From Guyparkeria hydrothermalis (GTDB taxonomy: Bacteria; Pseudomonadota; Gammaproteobacteria; Halothiobacillales; Halothiobacillaceae), in assembly GCF_023555385.1 (NCBI RefSeq), contig NZ_JAJSED010000001.1, positions 2,028,311 to 2,092,310 of the forward strand: a stretch of DNA of 64,000 nucleotides. Reading direction: 5' to 3'. Position numbers and translations under genes: made by a program. The notes below the pieces were generated by a model, which was not told where the DNA came from, did not search any database, and saw nothing but the letters and a program-made list of their open reading frames with translations. Below are positions 3,802 to 26,111 of this stretch, one piece after another (positions within the stretch are counted from its first letter, which is position 1; every line of letters begins with the position of its first letter).

Positions 3802-5061
3802 ATGCAGACCGACCACATATTGATGACGTTCTTCGCCGGGGTGCTGCTCCTCGGGGCGCTGGGGTTCTACCTCGGGCGAGCCAAGGCAACGCGGACGCGC
3901 GCAGGCGGGGTGCACATGCATTCCCAGCCGGATCAGTACGCGTGGTTCGCGGTGCTCAGTTCGGCCGGCCCCGCCGTGGTCGTCGCCTTCCTGGCCGCGA
4001 TCGTGCTGGGCGTATTCGAGAACGTCTTCCCCAGCTGGCTGGCGGTTGTCGGCGCCCTGGGGTTGGGCGCTTTCGGCCTGTTTGTCGGCCTGAACCGCAT
4101 CCGCCCCGAGCTGCGCGCCCGCGATTCGCTTGAGCGGTCGGTGCGGTGGACGCTGCTGGCAGCGGCCTCCGTCTCGGTCCTGACCACCTTCGGTATCCTG
4201 TTCTCCATCCTGTTCGAGGCGATCCGCTTCTTCCAGATGGAGAGCTTCTGGTACTTCATCACCGGGACCAACTGGGCCCCGGGCGACTCGTTCCTCGAGG
4301 CCGCCGGCCGGGCCGAGGGCGGCGAAGGGCCATCCGGCAACTTCGGCGCACTGCCGCTGTTCGCTGGCACCTTCATGATCACCGCGATCGCCATGCTGGT
4401 GGCCGTCCCCATCGGCGTCTCCGCGGCGATCTACATGTCCGAGTACGCGCCCAATTCGGTACGCACGGTCGCCAAGCCCGTGCTCGAGGTGCTGGCGGGC
4501 ATTCCGACGGTTGTCTACGGCTTCTTCGCCGCGATCACCGTCGCGCCGCTGATCGTCACGGCAGCCGGTTCGGTTGGCCTGGACGCCTCGTTCAACAACG
4601 CCCTCGCCCCCGGGATCGTGATGGGCATCATGATCATCCCGTTCATTTCCTCGCTCTCGGACGACGTGATCAGCTCGGTGCCCACGGCGATGCGCCAGGG
4701 CTCACTGGCACTGGGCACCACGCGCAACGAGACCATCCGCCACGTGGTGCTGCCCGCGGCACTGCCGGGGATCATCTCGGCGACGCTGCTGGGCGTCTCG
4801 CGCGCCCTGGGCGAGACCATGATCGTGGTGATGGCAGCCGGCATGCGGCCGAACCTCACCGCGAATCCTCTCGAGGACATGACGACGGTGACCGTCAGCA
4901 TCGTCTCCGCACTCACGGGTGACAACGAGTTCGAGTCGGCCGCGACGCTGTCGGCATTCGCGCTGGGGCTGATGCTGTTCGTGGTCACGCTGGTGCTCAA
5001 CTTCGTCTCGGTGTTGATGATCCGTCGCTTCCGTCGGAAGTACGCGGTCAACAACCTGTAA
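3802..5061 (+). CDS. pstC: Phosphate ABC transporter permease PstC
   Basis: The 419-residue inner-membrane permease subunit pairs with PstA to form the phosphate channel. It has an extended N-terminal membrane region (helices near residues 6-23, 45-65 and 72-90), then the canonical binding-protein-dependent transport domain from about residue 190. The EAA-type cytoplasmic loop ends with LGVSRALGETMIVVMAAG, the typical PstC signature. The chosen start is ATG 3802; an alternative in-frame ATG lies at 3823. It is separated from pstS by 224 bases containing a hairpin and nothing else recognised, and from pstA by 25 bases, so pstC-pstA-pstB are probably co-transcribed. Confidence 0.95.
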   Translation: MQTDHILMTFFAGVLLLGALGFYLGRAKATRTRAGGVHMHSQPDQYAWFAVLSSAGPAVVVAFLAAIVLGVFENVFPSWLAVVGALGLGAFGLFVGLNRIRPELRARDSLERSVRWTLLAAASVSVLTTFGILFSILFEAIRFFQMESFWYFITGTNWAPGDSFLEAAGRAEGGEGPSGNFGALPLFAGTFMITAIAMLVAVPIGVSAAIYMSEYAPNSVRTVAKPVLEVLAGIPTVVYGFFAAITVAPLIVTAAGSVGLDASFNNALAPGIVMGIMIIPFISSLSDDVISSVPTAMRQGSLALGTTRNETIRHVVLPAALPGIISATLLGVSRALGETMIVVMAAGMRPNLTANPLEDMTTVTVSIVSALTGDNEFESAATLSAFALGLMLFVVTLVLNFVSVLMIRRFRRKYAVNNL

Positions 5062-5086
5062 ACAGTCCAATCGGAAGCTTCCTGTC

Positions 5087-6253
5087 ATGGCCCAGTCCCT
5101 GGACGACATCTCCCGTCAGCTGAAAAAGCGCCACCGCAAGTCGGCACGCATGAAGTGGCTGTCGATGGCGGCGCTGCTTGCCGCAGGCGCCTTCCTGGTG
5201 CTGTTTCTCATCGACATGCTGGTCAAGGGGCTGCCGGCCTTCCAGCAGGCCTACATCCAGGTGGAGATCGACTACAGCGAGCGGGCCAGCGAGTTGCCGC
5301 TGGCGGCGGTGGAGGCCGATGTGCGCGAGCTGGTCAGCCGCGGTTATCTGCGCCTGATCCCCAATCGCATGAAAGAGAACCCCGACCTGCTTGGCACCAA
5401 GCGCATGGAGTGGGTGCTGGCCGACGACGCGGTCGACCAGCATCTGAAGGGGCGTGACACCCGCCTGCGCGACAAGCAGAAGGCGGTGATCGATCGGCTG
5501 GTCGAGGCGGGCAACGCCGAACTGCGCTTCAACACCGGCTTCTTCACCAACGGCGACTCCAAGCTGCCGGAGATGGCAGGCCTGGCCTCGGCGGCCGTGG
5601 GGTCGGTGCTGGTACTGATCGTCACCCTGGCCTTCGCCTTCCCGGTGGGCGTGATGACGGCGGTCTACCTCGAGGAGTTCGCGCCGGACAATCGCTTCAC
5701 GCGCTTTCTAGAGATCAACATCAACAACCTCGCCGCGATCCCGTCGATCCTGTTTGGTCTGCTGGGTCTGGCCATATTCATCAACTTCTTCGGCGCACCG
5801 CGCTCCTCGGCGCTGGCCGGCGGTCTGACGCTGGGTCTGATGACGCTGCCGATCATCATCATTACCTCGCGTGCCGCCCTGCGCGCCGTACCCGACTCGA
5901 TCCGCCAGGCGGCCTTCGGCGTCGGGGCGACCCGCTGGCAGACCGTGCGTGATCACGTGTTGCCGCTGTCGATGCCGGGTATCCTGACCGGCTCGATCAT
6001 CGGCTTGGCGCAGGCGCTGGGCGAGACCGCGCCGCTGATCATCATCGGCATGATCGCCTACATCCCGGACGCCCCGGGCAGTTTCACCCAGGCGGCCACC
6101 GTGCTACCGGCACAGATCTTCACCTGGGCGGGTATGCCGGAGTCGGCCTACGTCGAGCGTACCGCTGCCGGTATCATCGTGCTGCTGTCCGTGCTGATCA
6201 CGCTGAATGCGACCGCGGTCTATCTGCGCAAGAAATTCGAGCACCGCTGGTAA
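5087..6253 (+). CDS. pstA: Phosphate ABC transporter permease PstA
   Basis: The 388-residue second permease subunit of the phosphate importer begins with a cytoplasmic basic segment and one membrane helix (about residues 25-45). A long periplasmic insertion of roughly 110 residues follows before the transport domain. The EAA loop contains GLAQALGETAPLIIIGM, diagnostic for PstA. The insertion makes it longer than the ~296-residue E. coli PstA, a form seen in several other proteobacteria. It lies between pstC and pstB in the same direction. Confidence 0.95.
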   Translation: MAQSLDDISRQLKKRHRKSARMKWLSMAALLAAGAFLVLFLIDMLVKGLPAFQQAYIQVEIDYSERASELPLAAVEADVRELVSRGYLRLIPNRMKENPDLLGTKRMEWVLADDAVDQHLKGRDTRLRDKQKAVIDRLVEAGNAELRFNTGFFTNGDSKLPEMAGLASAAVGSVLVLIVTLAFAFPVGVMTAVYLEEFAPDNRFTRFLEININNLAAIPSILFGLLGLAIFINFFGAPRSSALAGGLTLGLMTLPIIIITSRAALRAVPDSIRQAAFGVGATRWQTVRDHVLPLSMPGILTGSIIGLAQALGETAPLIIIGMIAYIPDAPGSFTQAATVLPAQIFTWAGMPESAYVERTAAGIIVLLSVLITLNATAVYLRKKFEHRW

Positions 6254-8235: not shown

Positions 8236-8760
8236 GGAAAAGTCCTCTGTGTCAGTCGAATGGGTAAACGAAAAATCGGGGACAGGAAGTCTTTGAATGC
8301 GCTAGGGAAGGTCTGCTCGATTCGATAGTGCCTCTGCGGGCCGCCAAGGGCCCAGTTGCAAGGCGCAGTTCGCCGTGAATGACGCTACCTTCACAAGAAC
8401 TGCAACGCCGCAAATGGGTCCTTGGCGGCCCGCCCGAATGGGGCTGGCGGGTTTGCCCGCACTCGGCGTTGCCGCACCTCGCCGGGCAATGAGCCCGACG
8501 TCGGCACGGCGCCTTGATTGCGCACAAACCCGCCAGCCAGAGGCGCCATCGAATCGAGCAGACCTTCCCGACATTCAGAGCCGCCCTGTCCGGCAATCCG
8601 GTGTTCAGCGGCCGCCTATGGTAACCGATCGCCCGCGGCAACCGAACCGGAGCGCGTCCGGCCCGCCCCGGCGCCATCCGCGATGGCTGCAGGGTGGGGG
8701 GAAGTTGGGTATCCTTACGAACGCCCCGGCTCGGGTGACAAGCGCGCCCGGGCGAAATCC
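8236..8760. other. Gene-free divergent intergenic region holding a structured repeat
   Basis: These 525 bases lie between the divergently transcribed fbp and the PilZ gene. The central 8294-8577 is the three-way-junction inverted-repeat element described separately. The rest should contain the promoters for both genes, but no convincing -35/-10 pair was picked. Reading frames through it have no conserved protein character. Confidence 0.7.
8294..8577. repeat. Composite inverted-repeat element with two internal hairpins (three-way junction)
   Basis: Outer arms 8305-8336 and 8538-8569 are inverted copies matching at 30 of 32 bases, with a further TGAATG/CATTCA match outside them (8294-8299 and 8572-8577). 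Inside are two independent long hairpins. Hairpin A has 8336-8354 pairing with 8415-8433 (18 of 19), with inner paired segments. Hairpin B has 8442-8455 pairing with 8525-8538 (14 of 14). Together they fold as a closed stem with two arms. There is no ORF of its own, no transposase and no T-run. It may be a non-autonomous repeat element or a structured RNA or cruciform. Confidence 0.8.
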
Positions 8761-20403: not shown

Positions 20404-21918
20404 ATGCCCAACCGTTTCCAGCCCTACCAGCCCACCCGCGTCGACCTCGAGACGCTCGCCGCCGAGGGCTACAACCGAGTCCCCGTCACCCGCCGCGTGC
20501 TGGGCGACTACGACACGCCGCTGTCCGTCTACCGCAAGCTGGTGGAAGGCCCGTTCGGCTATCTGTTCGAGTCGGTCACCGGCGGCGAGCGCTGGGGGCG
20601 CTACTCGATCATCGGCCTGCCCTCGCCGACGGTCCTCACCGTCCACGGCCACCGCGCGGTGGTCAAGAAGAACGGCGAGGTGGTCGAGGACGAGACCGTC
20701 GACGACCCGCTTGCCTGGATCGAGACCTTCAAGGCCCGCTACCGCGTCTATGAGCCGGCCGACATGCCGCGCTTTCACGGCGGGCTGGTGGGCTACTTCG
20801 GTTTCGAGACCATCGGCTACATCGAGCCGCGCCTGGCGAACTTCGACGCCGACGACCCGCTGGGCGTGCCCGACATCCTGCTGATGGCAAGCGAAGAGGT
20901 GGTCGTGGTCGACAACCTCTCCAGCGAGCTGTTGCTGGTGACGCTGATCGACCCTTCAGAGACCGGCGCGCTCGATCTGGCCAACGTGCGCCTCGACACG
21001 CTCGCCCGTCGCCTGCGCGAGCCGGTGGCCCACTACGGCTCCTCCGCCCCGGGCAAGCCGATCGACGAGAACGACTTCACCGCCACCTTCACCCGCGAGG
21101 GCTACGAGAACGCCGTGCGCGCCATCCGCGAGTACATCGCGGCGGGCGATGTCATGCAGGTGGTGCCCAGCCAGCGGATGAGCATCGAGTTCGGTGCTGC
21201 GCCCATCGACCTCTACCGGGCGCTGCGCTCGATCAACCCCTCGCCGTACATGTACTTCATCGACGCCGGCGAGTTCACCGTGGTCGGCTCCAGCCCCGAG
21301 ATCCTCGCCCGCCTCGAGGACGGCACCGTCACCGTGCGCCCGATTGCCGGCACCCGCCCGCGCGGTGCCACGGAAGCCGAGGACAAGGCCCTCGAGCAGG
21401 ACCTGTTGAGCGATCCGAAGGAGATCGCCGAGCACGTCATGCTGATCGATCTCGGGCGCAACGACACCGGCCGTGTCGCCAAGGTCGGCAGCGTCAAGCT
21501 CGAGGAGCGCATGATCATCGAGCGCTACTCGCACGTCATGCACATCGTCTCGCAGGTCACCGGCCAGCTCGAGGAGGGCTACAACGCCATGGACGTCCTG
21601 CGCGCGACCTTCCCCGCCGGCACCGTCTCGGGTGCACCGAAGATCCGCGCACTGGAAATCATCCAGGGGCTCGAGCCCGTCAAGCGTGGTGTCTACGCCG
21701 GGGCGGTGGGTTACTGGGCCTGGAATGGCAACATGGATACGGCCATCGCCATCCGTACCGGGGTGATCAAGGACGAGCAGCTGCACGTTCAGGCTGGGGG
21801 CGGGATCGTCGCCGACTCCGTGCCTGCTACCGAGTGGGAGGAGACGCTCAACAAGCGTAGGGCGTTATTCCGGGCGGCGAATATGGCTAGTCGGGGGTTG
21901 GATGCTGCGGACGGCTAA
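20404..21918 (+). CDS. trpE: Anthranilate synthase component I
   Basis: The 504-residue enzyme converts chorismate to anthranilate with ammonia supplied by TrpG. The N-terminal regulatory domain begins [16 protein letters not shown] and contains [16 protein letters not shown], part of the Trp feedback site. The C-terminal chorismate-binding domain has [26 protein letters not shown] (read in pieces), [24 protein letters not shown] and [12 protein letters not shown]. The expected trpG does not follow. The next 2.3 kb is an AT-rich ATPase gene and a non-coding palindrome. Confidence 0.97.
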
Positions 21919-22033: not shown

Positions 22034-23308
22034 ATGTTTTTCAGAAAGAGCCCGGAAGAAGTTTTTACTCCTCGCGTCAAGGATGTCAATGATGACATGT
22101 ATATTCACCGGGAGGGTCTTGAGAGGGCATTGAGTCGGGCAATAAGAAAGCACAAGAATATCGTGGTGCACGGGGAAAGCGGCACTGGGAAAACATGGCT
22201 TTATAAGAAAATATTTTCTGAGCTCGATGTTTACTATGAAGTTCTAAATTGCGCAACTGTGAATCAGTGTGGCTCCGTAAGTGATGCAATTGGTTACTTG
22301 GTCGCGAGGCTAGAGCCCAATGAGAAGGTGGGCCACGAAGAAGCTAAAGGAGCTGAAGGGAACGCAGGTTTTGCTAAGGGTCACCTCGAGCACACGAGTC
22401 AGTACCGGAAAAGCGCGCCTGACAACTATCTGAAATTGGTTCGTCTTATACGGAAGAGGGCTAAATCTAAAAAGGCATTTCTTGTTGTTGAAAACTTGGA
22501 GCACATTGTTCGGGATAAAGACAAGATTAGTGAGCTTTCGTCTCTTTTGCTCTACCTTGATGATGAGGTATATGCAGAAAGCAATGTCAGGATCTTGCTG
22601 GTTGGAACCCCTAACAACCTGCGAGATTATTTTGCAGAAGTGGATGAGACCCAGACCATAATAAATAGGTTGCAGGAGATACCGGAAGTTTCCGCGCTTT
22701 CCAAGCATGACGTGGTTGAGTTGGCAAAAAAGGGGTTGTTTAAAATATTGCGTCTCGATTTTGTTGAGGACCGGCCGAGGAACTTTACCGAGTGGTATTT
22801 TCTAAATGCCATTTCTTGGTTTTCTATCAATATCCCGCAGTATGTCCACGATATTTGCCTTGAAGTGGCTCTCGAGGCATCGGATGATGGGGGAAGGATA
22901 ACCAGAAAAGGGTACACTCAGGCCTTGAGGAATTGGGTTCAGGAAGCCTTGGTTGCTGAGAACTCAAGGCTTGAGAAGAATATAAATTCTAAGGAAACTA
23001 GGCATGGGAGAAGGAACCAGGTTATTTATACTACGGGGGTTCTGTCGCAAAATGAGTTTTCAAATGCTGAAGTGGAGGAGAGCTTGCGGGAACACTTCCC
23101 AACCAGTACCGAAGGGAAGACACTCAATGTATCTTCAAATCTGATTGAGCTCTCAAATGGGACTCATCCAATTCTGTCTAAGACGCCGAAAGGAAATCGG
23201 TATCGTTTCATTGATCCGAAAATAAAGATAATGATTCGCTGGATGTTGCAGAAGAATGATGATGAACGGTTGGTTGTGAAGAAGTTTGATGAAAGTATCA
23301 AGTTTTAG
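22034..23308 (+). CDS. AAA+ ATPase of unknown function, horizontally acquired
   Basis: The 424-residue protein has one P-loop ATPase domain. Walker A is GESGTGKT (residues 47-54), a Walker B-like strand KAFLVVEN (147-154) has Glu then Asn instead of Asp-Glu, and a sensor-1-like strand is ILLVGTPNN (187-195). The region after residue ~215 is helical, and the C-terminal part (about 330-410) could be a winged helix with YRFIDPKIKIMIRW. It resembles Orc/TniB-like or STAND-related AAA modules, but no family was firmly recognised. The start follows GAAGAGG at six bases. Codon use is strikingly AT-rich compared with all neighbours, and a giant inverted repeat follows. This suggests transfer and possibly a defence or mobile-element role, which is inference. 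Confidence 0.75.
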   Translation: MFFRKSPEEVFTPRVKDVNDDMYIHREGLERALSRAIRKHKNIVVHGESGTGKTWLYKKIFSELDVYYEVLNCATVNQCGSVSDAIGYLVARLEPNEKVGHEEAKGAEGNAGFAKGHLEHTSQYRKSAPDNYLKLVRLIRKRAKSKKAFLVVENLEHIVRDKDKISELSSLLLYLDDEVYAESNVRILLVGTPNNLRDYFAEVDETQTIINRLQEIPEVSALSKHDVVELAKKGLFKILRLDFVEDRPRNFTEWYFLNAISWFSINIPQYVHDICLEVALEASDDGGRITRKGYTQALRNWVQEALVAENSRLEKNINSKETRHGRRNQVIYTTGVLSQNEFSNAEVEESLREHFPTSTEGKTLNVSSNLIELSNGTHPILSKTPKGNRYRFIDPKIKIMIRWMLQKNDDERLVVKKFDESIKF

Positions 23309-23382
23309 GTTTCCCCGCCTTAAGGACCGGACCTAGACCCTGCGGGGTCGGACCTGACCAACTGCTTGATACAACAGCCTTA

Positions 23383-23404
23383 GCCCCTCTGATGAGGGGC
23401 TTTT
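23383..23404 (+). terminator. Intrinsic terminator of the AAA+ gene
   Basis: GCCCCTC (23383-23389) and GAGGGGC (23394-23400) form a 7-bp stem with a TGAT loop followed by TTTT. It is compact and well formed. Confidence 0.85.
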
Positions 23405-23479: not shown

Positions 23480-24154
23480 GGTGGATCGGTTTCACGCGCT
23501 CGTTGTGTCAGGTGGCAACGGTTTGGCTCCGTGCCTGGCGCGCGAGTCGGTTTTCTTGCTTGTCCAAGAAAACCGACGAAAAGAAGGACACCCCGACGCC
23601 TTGGCCCTGCGGACCTGATCGCTGCGCGATCAGCCTCGCGAACGGGCAATCGCGGACGGGTCGGTTCGACGCGACGTCGTGTCGCGGCGAACCTCGGGCT
23701 TGCGTCCATGCAAGCCCGACCCTGCGATTCCCCGCTCGCGAGGCAAGGCGTAAGGGGGCTCACCCTTCGATTTGCTTCGTTCAGGGATTCAAGCGCGCGA
23801 CTTGTCTCGCAGCTGGGATGGAGTGAGCGCTTGCCGGTCGGCACGACGGTTAACGAAGGCCTTCCCCCTGTCGGCTTGCCTCACGGCCCGCAGATGGCCG
23901 GGGTCGGAGCGACAGGGACGTCGCTCCGAGGCTCAGCGCGACACGACGTCGCGTCGAGCCGGACCCGAAAGCCAGCCGCCGGCCGTGAGGCTTCGAGGTC
24001 GGACTGTGTCCGACCTCGAAGGCCCGAAGGGCCAAGCCGTGGGGTGTCTTTCTTTTCGGGTCTTTTCTTGGACAAGCAAGAAAAGGCCCTCGCGCGCGTG
24101 GCAGGGCAGTGGCTATTGCCCGCCCCACGCAACAGGCGTGCGAAACGATCCACC
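23480..24154. repeat. Giant imperfect inverted repeat (~675 bp) rich in secondary hairpins
   Basis: The right half is an inverted, diverged copy of the left half, centred near 23817. Exact inverted matches include a 22-mer (23551-23572 with 24063-24084) and a 19-mer (23668-23686 with 23937-23955). The outer ends also match (GGTGGATCG at 23480 against CGATCCACC ending at 24154), as do GACACCCC/GGGGTGTC and GAGGCAAG/CTTGCCTC. Each arm also contains local hairpins, e.g. TTTTCTTG...CAAGAAAA and CGGGCTTGCGTCCATGCAAGCCCG-type stems (23695-23718). No transposase or ORF is supported. Similar sequence is partly present at 25991-26040, so it belongs to a repeat family in this genome. Confidence 0.85.
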
Positions 24155-24208
24155 TAGGTATTTCCGCGCGGACTGGAATCCCTGCCGCGCTCTGGCATGC
24201 TTCGCGTC

Positions 24209-25273
24209 ATGTCTGATGAAACCCAATTGCTCTTTCTTACCCGAGCCGGCTACGAGGGCGACTGCGCCGCCCAGGTGCAGACGGTCGCCGCCGAGGCGGG
24301 CGTCCACGGCTTCTGCAAGGCCAAGTCCGATACCGGCTACCTGACCTTCATTGCCCACGACCCCGAGGCACTGGCCCATTGGTTCGAGGCGCTTGCCCTC
24401 GATGAGCTGATCTTTGCCCGACAGCTTTGCCTGGCCGGCGAGACACTGGACGACCTGCCGGCGGACAACCGGCTGGGGCCGATCCTCGCCGCGATCGAGG
24501 GGCAGGAGTTTGGTGGGGTCTATGTCGAGACGCCGGATGCCGAGGCGACCCGGCCGCTGATGCGGTTATGCCGCAAGTTCACCAAGCCGCTGGAGCAGTC
24601 GATGCGCAAGCGCGGCCTGCTCGACCCGGGAAATCCGGATCTGCCGCGGCTGCATCTCACCTTCACCGACACCACCACCGTGATTCCTGGCTGGTCGCAT
24701 CCGGGGCAGGCCGCCCCGCAGCCGATGGGCATCCCGCGCCTCAAGCTTGCCAAGGACGCACCCAGCCGTTCGGCGCTCAAGCTCGAGGAGGCGCTGATCA
24801 CCTTCCTCTCGCCCGAGGAGCGCAAGGACCTGCTGCGCGCCGGGCTCGAGGCGGTTGACCTGGGTGCGGCGCCCGGCGGCTGGACCTGGCAGCTGGTGCG
24901 CGACGGGCTGATCGTCACCGCCGTCGACAACGGCCCGATGGCGGACGTGTTCACCGGGCACGTCTCCGTCGAGCATCGCCGCGAGGACGGTTTCACCTTC
25001 CGCCCCGAGCGGCCGGTGGAGTGGCTGGTCTGCGACATGGTGGAAAAGCCCTCGCGCGTCGCCGACCTGATGGCCGACTGGATGGCGCGCGGCGACTGCC
25101 AGCGGGCGATCTTCAACCTCAAGCTGCCGATGAAGAAGCGTCAGCAGGCGGTGATGGATGCGGTCGAGCGGATCGCGGATCGGTTGGAGGATGCCGAGGT
25201 CGACTTCGATATCGACATTCGGCAGCTGTATCACGATCGGGATGAGGTGACGGCTTACCTGCGGCGGGTATAG
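24209..25273 (+). CDS. rlmM: 23S rRNA (cytidine-2'-O)-methyltransferase RlmM
   Basis: The 354-residue enzyme methylates the 2'-hydroxyl of C2498 of 23S rRNA. An N-terminal THUMP-like domain begins LLFLTRAGYEGDCAAQV and includes GFCKAKSDTGYLTF. The C-terminal Rossmann domain has the SAM motif DLGAAPGGWTWQLV, VEWLVCDMVEKPSRVADLM and FNLKLPMKKR, carrying the catalytic Lys/Asp positions of the RrmJ type. ATG 24209 gives MSDETQLLFL; an ATG four codons upstream (24197) is the alternative. It begins about 55 bases after the giant inverted repeat. Confidence 0.93.
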   Translation: MSDETQLLFLTRAGYEGDCAAQVQTVAAEAGVHGFCKAKSDTGYLTFIAHDPEALAHWFEALALDELIFARQLCLAGETLDDLPADNRLGPILAAIEGQEFGGVYVETPDAEATRPLMRLCRKFTKPLEQSMRKRGLLDPGNPDLPRLHLTFTDTTTVIPGWSHPGQAAPQPMGIPRLKLAKDAPSRSALKLEEALITFLSPEERKDLLRAGLEAVDLGAAPGGWTWQLVRDGLIVTAVDNGPMADVFTGHVSVEHRREDGFTFRPERPVEWLVCDMVEKPSRVADLMADWMARGDCQRAIFNLKLPMKKRQQAVMDAVERIADRLEDAEVDFDIDIRQLYHDRDEVTAYLRRV

Positions 25274-25920: not shown

Positions 25921-25990
25921 GCCGGGCTCCTTGTCATGCGGATGGTGGATTTGCGTCGGCAATACACTTGCATAGTAGCCAGCACGGTTC

Positions 25991-26040
25991 CCTGCAATCC
26001 CCCGCTCGTGAGGCAAGGCGCCGCGGGGTTGTCCCTCCGA
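25991..26040. repeat. Fragment related to the giant inverted repeat
   Basis: These 50 bases align without gaps to 23721-23770 of the giant inverted repeat, matching at 39 of 50 positions, including CCCGCTCG and AGGCAAGGCG. It lies in the 191-base gap between sodC and the TolA-C-like gene. It shows that the element at 23.5-24.2 kb has at least one dispersed partial relative. Confidence 0.65.
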
Positions 26041-26111
26041 TACCGCCCCGTTATCGCATTAGGTGCGGTGGCGCCTTCGTTGATTGGAGCAGCGGGCAGC
26101 AGGCCGGGGCG

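Follow-up and report, generated by a model that had tools for sequence, protein, structure and literature searches.

A giant structured palindrome of a multi-copy repeat family borders variable low-GC gene slots in Guyparkeria

Minimal mobile elements (Saunders and Snyder 2002; definition as quoted in PMC3082526) place different whole-gene cassettes between the same two conserved genes, and defence islands and hotspots (PMC10121019) are fixed chromosomal locations with a changing set of defence genes. REPs are units of 20–40 bp with GTAG/CGTC tags (PMC3733652). TwoAYGGAY is an orphan motif judged to be probably an RNA and not cis-regulatory (Weinberg 2010, PMC2864571). It is also established that long palindromes are cleaved by SbcCD in E. 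coli (PMC3315005). Here we describe a giant palindrome in a 64,000-nucleotide stretch of the Guyparkeria hydrothermalis genome (contig NZ_JAJSED010000001.1, positions 2,028,311 to 2,092,310), hereafter the window. The layout of its site resembles minimal mobile elements and defence hotspots; what is new is that several sites share a giant palindrome as their border. As in minimal mobile elements, each genome carries a different whole-gene cassette between two conserved genes (trpE/rlmM and dnaE sites), and the cargo is of low GC, includes restriction–modification (R–M) genes and brings no recombinase of its own in the scanned slots. In contrast, one border here is a giant repeated palindrome shared by several slots, and homologous recombination is a route that we infer. 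The difference from defence hotspots lies in single-gene slots that share a structured repeat as their border and in which neither integrase nor prophage genes were seen. Like integron cassettes, single genes are followed by a structured palindrome towards which they read; unlike them, each site holds one cargo with no arrays, and the palindrome stays while the cargo changes. Integron membership was rejected because no IntI exceeded the TIGR02249 curated cut-off in any genome, where only ordinary tyrosine recombinases were found. With REPs, REPINs and BIMEs the palindrome shares an extragenic position at gene 3' ends and occurrence both as inverted dimers and as single units, and RAYT-like Y1 genes are present in some congeners; it differs in its arms of ~300 bp and its few, orthologous copies, and an alignment of 25 full copies contains no 20–40 bp REP unit with a tetranucleotide tag. 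A RAYT as the required mover was dismissed, since two carriers of the palindrome (G000 and G005) have no Y1_Tnp gene. With regard to MITEs and DNA transposons, the palindrome copies were found to be orthologous across species. In the passages of a Guyparkeria pangenome paper that match the searched terms, which concern CRISPR only, such a repeat is not mentioned.

The giant imperfect palindrome with nested hairpins described in the original prediction was confirmed by an inverted-repeat scan, folding, alignment and the consensus fold. It spans 675 bp from 23480 (GGTGGATCG) to 24154 (CGATCCACC), and its termini match each other. Every copy consists of two arms of ~300 bp, A and B, in inverted orientation; in the window the arms match at 67% over 596 bp (self-BLAST). 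The main arms (23529–23594 and 24041–24106) match at 82% over 66 nt, with more paired blocks within each arm. A 22-mer (TTTTCTTGCTTGTCCAAGAAAA and TTTTCTTGGACAAGCAAGAAAA) is directly readable in both halves, and a second matching block of about 21 nt is TCGACGCGACGTCGTGTCGCG. No protein-coding function is visible in 23480–24154, as had been proposed, and the long ORFs across the palindrome are due to its GC-rich symmetry. Since the same orthologous sites are occupied in independent assemblies of ten Guyparkeria genomes, the palindrome is not an assembly artefact.

The consensus structure, built on the alignment of 25 full copies, reveals an ornate architecture. Outer hairpin A (23492–23545, helix 1) is mirrored by A' (24090–24143, helix 17), and hairpin B (GTCGGTTTTCTTG-CTTGTC-CAAGAAAACCGAC; 23546–23577, helix 2), also detected by the inverted-repeat scan, is mirrored by B' (24058–24089, helices 15–16). 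An inter-arm helix of 32 pairs (helix 3) joins 23579–23615 to 24021–24057. Arm A then carries hairpin D (23616–23632, helix 4), arm B carries hairpin E (23991–24021, helix 14; inverted-repeat scan), and each arm contains one TwoAYGGAY multi-branch domain. The arm A domain (23631–23746, minus strand, helices 5–8) matches RF01731 with 59.9 bits, and the arm B domain (23878–23991, helices 10–13) contains a match at 23899–23967 on the plus strand with 48.9 bits; the two are oppositely oriented and both exceed the 43-bit gathering threshold. The palindrome centre between these domains is unstructured and variable, with a small hairpin (23751–23768, helix 9) at its edge. Both arms share with TwoAYGGAY a multi-branch fold with two hairpins bearing AYGGAY-like loops. 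The Rfam model, with 168 model positions, covers the inner part only, whereas in the palindrome this part makes up a single domain of a symmetric 675-bp dimer with additional outer hairpins and a long inter-arm helix. Because RF01731 lies within each arm, the motif is a fragment of a larger symmetric element. An orphan whose function has been unassigned since 2010 is thereby placed in an element with a testable genomic role.

Compared with dinucleotide shuffles, the fold energy has z-scores of −16.2 (plus strand) and −21.3 (minus strand) as RNA and −16.6 as DNA. Stem covariation across species is present: among the 181 pairs of the consensus, 30 show compensatory double changes in the 25 full copies, compared with 17.6 in shuffles, a count to be read with the structure being taken from the same alignment as was tested and with kinship among the sequences inflating covariation. 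Cells are paired in 98.3% of cases in these copies versus 94.6% after shuffling, and none of 500 shuffles reached the observed pairing or double-change count. The TwoAYGGAY domains have a conserved fold with covariation. The inter-arm helix is 98% paired with no double changes and varies on one side only, so it is compatible with covariation and not proven by it.

The palindrome belongs to a multi-copy family of non-coding repeats, with the A/B inverted dimer as its unit. Family members occur both as full pairs and as single halves. In the 2.39-Mb, single-contig genome of the window there are three near-full copies plus half copies, some paired in inverted orientation, and nearly all congeners have 8–29 BLAST matches, with none in a fragmentary, 64%-complete genome; the Guyparkeria set includes MAGs labelled Halothiobacillus (pattern scan). 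Outside the genus, relatives are more distant and scattered among gammaproteobacteria: BLAST matches are weak in two sister genera and in a handful of distant families, and absent from a third sister genus. The weak relatives keep the architecture, with a CTTTTCTTGCTTGTCCAAGAAAAG-type hairpin, a GCCC-GGGC hairpin, a double AYGGAY-loop domain and a terminal GCGAAAC, and often occur as inverted pairs. Of 185 genomes sampled from the class, 13 contain RF01731, frequently more than once. Searches of plasmids, phages and viral contigs for the palindrome returned no match. A tree of 110 arms separates A arms from B arms across almost all sites, indicating that the dimer spread as a whole and that the arms were not homogenised. 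Judging from this tree, the arms diverged before the pair spread, and the age that had been read from arm divergence is borne out by the separate A and B lineages. As copies occupy orthologous sites, the element is now largely immobile. The suggestion of a mobile palindrome family accordingly holds for the family and only partly for its mobility: copies stay at orthologous sites, and no transposase could be tied to them.

Across Guyparkeria species, the loci group into about ten orthologous sites. Some of these sites contain a single slot that follows the 3' end of a housekeeping gene and is closed on its downstream side by the palindrome. In the window, the left border is the 3' end of trpE (ORF 20404–21918, plus strand; orthologous site in 10 genomes), and the conserved right neighbour is rlmM (ORF 24197–25273, plus strand; orthologous in congeners). 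The cargo slot lies between housekeeping gene and palindrome at the trpE, dnaE, lysS, nrdB-like and S9 sites, about half of the palindrome sites, and its content is species-specific and of low GC. At the first four of these sites it is one foreign, species-unique and often defence-type gene or operon with 39–51% GC. At sites S5, S7 and S8 the palindrome never has cargo, so it is not sufficient for cargo; copies from these sites form their own clades in the arm tree. Flanks below 55% GC were found on the A side of 24 of 58 copies versus the B side of 3 of 56 (Fisher p 5e-6). By an independent measure, that of DNA shared with no other genome, most trpE and dnaE copies have 0.57–3.1 kb on the A side against about 0 on the B side, and both sides are near zero at S5, S7 and S8. 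In the genome of the window, five of the six palindrome loci adjoin a low-GC stretch, whereas the 400-kb sample of this genome from which the background was estimated has no palindromes and a single genuine low-GC island, a second one being N-masked. The automatic gap measure overlooked cargo at five loci (L037, L040, L047, L070 and L073), where the ORF/GC listing shows it. In 25 loci the cargo points towards the palindrome; in four, all at S9, it points away. In G005 the slot of the dnaE site is without cargo, the gene there almost directly abutting the palindrome. On the other side of the palindrome, four congeners have a conserved 353-aa protein (MLDALEAGLKAWLWPG...) before rlmM (L041 3769–4830, L051 6021–7085, L054 4286–5347 and L083 1064–2125), which is missing in the genome of the window.

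The variable low-GC defence cargo beside the palindrome is the most informative feature of the locus and was invisible to the original prediction. The slot of the window contains an AAA ATPase of 424 aa (22034–23308, plus strand, GC 0.44), which is unique to this genome among congeners and weakly matches the candidate defence model PDC-S59. The trpE site instead holds an N6/N4 methylase with an XcyI-type endonuclease (R–M) in G003, AIPR/AbiU in G002, an OLD/AriA-like ATPase in G005, a reverse transcriptase of PADLOC class RT-Toprim_I-C in G007 and a 246-aa protein with no assigned family in G001. Cargo at other sites includes OLD/AriA-like, nucleotidyltransferase, NERD/SEC-C, HARE-HTH, HNH and PIN proteins, PDC-S11 and PDC-M43B-like proteins and several without a family. 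Many cargo genes have no known defence homologue. Cargo proteins are essentially non-homologous between genomes, and two OLD-type proteins share 21%. No recombinase was found in the cargo scanned by Pfam; an IS3-type transposase pair adjoins one palindrome copy (L042). Species exchange single defence genes at sites marked by the repeat, which can therefore serve as a signpost for new defence genes. Several cargo genes are without a recognised family. In other gammaproteobacterial lineages, low-GC cargo beside TwoAYGGAY was not seen in the 20 regions examined, with the one exception of a low-GC ORF near a copy in G165 (L164 5430–6248).

The upstream housekeeping gene is conserved to its last codons, where homology ends. 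Codon adaptation over the last 20 codons is 0.20 for trpE, the lowest among 26 reference genes, and 0.26 for dnaE, compared with a 26-gene mean of 0.65 (sd 0.16). The 3' ends of trpE (21800–21918) and dnaE (L038) use, genus-wide, rare G- and T-ending codons (TTG, CGG, GGG and AAT). Fourfold-site divergence is raised at trpE codons 460–485 in Guyparkeria and not in a sister genus lacking the repeat. The flanking genes show no general gradient of falling identity towards the cargo, so introgression tracts are not clearly seen. A TTATYCCGGGCGGCG-like stretch near the trpE and dnaE 3' ends, noticed by eye, was considered as a common att-like sequence and rejected, as it lies within coding sequence and fails at the lysS and nrdB-like sites. 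The spacer between cargo and palindrome contains the motif GGGGTCGGACC (23344–23354, plus strand), which recurs at many of the joints between cargo and palindrome and which congeners also have next to Y1 (RAYT-like) transposase genes. The sequence GGGGTCGGACCNNNNNAA is rare, with 15 occurrences in five genomes and one in the genome of the window, about half of them at cargo/palindrome junctions. One Y1 gene (L206, gene 4917–5654) has the core motif on both sides in inverted orientation (4185 plus and 5724 minus), and the motif adjoins a second Y1 gene (L123). Between an XcyI-type R–M cargo and the palindrome, GGGGTCGGACC is repeated three times in tandem with 45-bp spacing (L048 2710–2840). 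The same spacer in the window contains a putative terminator hairpin, CCCCTCTGATGAGGGGCTTTT (23384–23404, plus strand), read by eye and common to most trpE-site copies; the automatic scan did not flag it. At the dnaE site of Guyparkeria sp. SCN-R1, cargo and palindrome are separated by DNA that includes a sequence resembling a tRNA 3' end (GGTTCGAATCCTTCCCTCCACACCA; L053 3040–3260).

The explanation we favour, to which we give even chances, is that the palindrome, a structured repeat that has been domesticated, forms the border of "docking sites" which behave as minimal mobile elements do, with the exchange route being one that we infer. Recombination of incoming DNA would take place within the conserved housekeeping gene upstream of the slot and, downstream of it, within the conserved stretch of spacer, palindrome and next gene, so that the cargo would be swapped whole. 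The palindrome would then be a structured spacer tolerated at gene 3' ends and, recurring at several sites, a homology anchor; it may persist partly because the genus has no recognisable SbcCD. ComEC, found in all 10 genomes tested, permits natural uptake and is no demonstration of it. Against this explanation stand the missing identity gradient in the flanking genes, the cargo-free palindromes at S5, S7 and S8, the lack of such cargo beside TwoAYGGAY in the regions examined from other gammaproteobacterial lineages, the Y1-transposase motif at the junction, which hints at a different route, and the many cargo genes with no counterpart among known defence genes. The palindrome might instead be a neutral bystander, a repeat of gene 3' ends that is selfish or structural in nature (resembling a giant REP/BIME or a MITE) and has no part in exchange, while foreign genes gather at operon 3' ends as tolerant hotspots. 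The common cargo-free copies at S5, S7 and S8, the plain intergenic repeats without cargo in other lineages, and the persistence of the palindrome as orthologous while the cargo was exchanged all agree with such a bystander. Yet low-GC islands are almost lacking in the random 400-kb sample and touch five of six palindrome loci, and the strict one-sidedness, the cargo orientation and the split between cargo and non-cargo subfamilies each need an extra reason; we regard the bystander as unlikely, if worth keeping in mind. An active cassette mechanism is a rather improbable alternative, in which a Y1 (RAYT-like) transposase recognising GGGGTCGGACC would insert single-stranded DNA cargo and the palindrome would be its preferred landing structure. 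The junction bias of GGGGTCGGACCNNNNNAA and the core motifs at the Y1 genes point towards it. It is opposed by cargo in the two genomes that lack Y1_Tnp, by the absence of a matching left-end motif at the trpE or dnaE joints, and by the motif-containing spacer at the trpE site, which is common to copies whatever their cargo. In a bolder form, a new kind of single-gene defence cassette would land and be exchanged on the palindrome folded as single-stranded DNA, with the help of a HUH (Y1) enzyme acting in trans and recognising this motif. This form has a slim chance; if true, it would amount to an integron-like defence library on giant hairpins in place of attC sites.

The strong conserved fold with covariation, the GU/GC exchanges in the inter-arm helix and the published judgement on TwoAYGGAY would suit an element transcribed as a large, ornate RNA or as a source of double-stranded RNA, possibly serving the neighbouring defence genes. 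However, selection on single-stranded DNA or a cruciform predicts the same double changes, the structure is nearly strand-symmetric, promoter-like sites in or near the palindrome do not exceed chance, and the terminator-like hairpin lies upstream of the palindrome at the trpE site; a functional RNA of this kind therefore seems doubtful. Cleavage of a cruciform by a nuclease, which would make double-strand breaks and hence promote recombination, was another of the proposed roles, and the precedent in E. coli speaks for it. It did not find support here: the SbcD model has no match in any of six near-complete Guyparkeria genomes, whereas 13 of 14 controls are positive, and the SbcC matches are weak, short and within long, SMC-looking frames. 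We consider this role extremely improbable. The apparent lack of SbcD fits the survival of long palindromes and removes the usual route from palindrome to breaks. A class-wide link between SbcD absence and the motif was not useful, as SbcD exceeded the cut-off in only 21 of 185 genomes of the class sample; its absence, being common in the class, is permissive for long palindromes and not diagnostic. Guyparkeria offers a natural example of 675-bp palindromes stably kept in a bacterial chromosome.

Some copies of the repeat have decayed or been invaded. A decayed remnant of a second palindrome lies at 25989–26041 (plus strand), its full-length counterpart being located between rlmM and mgtE in congeners, and it shows decay of the repeat by large deletion. 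A MITE-like element of ~295 bp with ~30-bp terminal inverted repeats (GGGAAGGTCTGCTCGATTCGAT...) lies at 8286–8580 in the window. Relatives of this element, at ~83%, are found inside the palindrome at one position (equivalent to 23965/23971) in four congeners, and the loaded palindromes (L042, L048, L053 and L054) occupy different sites. The shared position suggests either a target preference or the copying of a loaded palindrome between sites.
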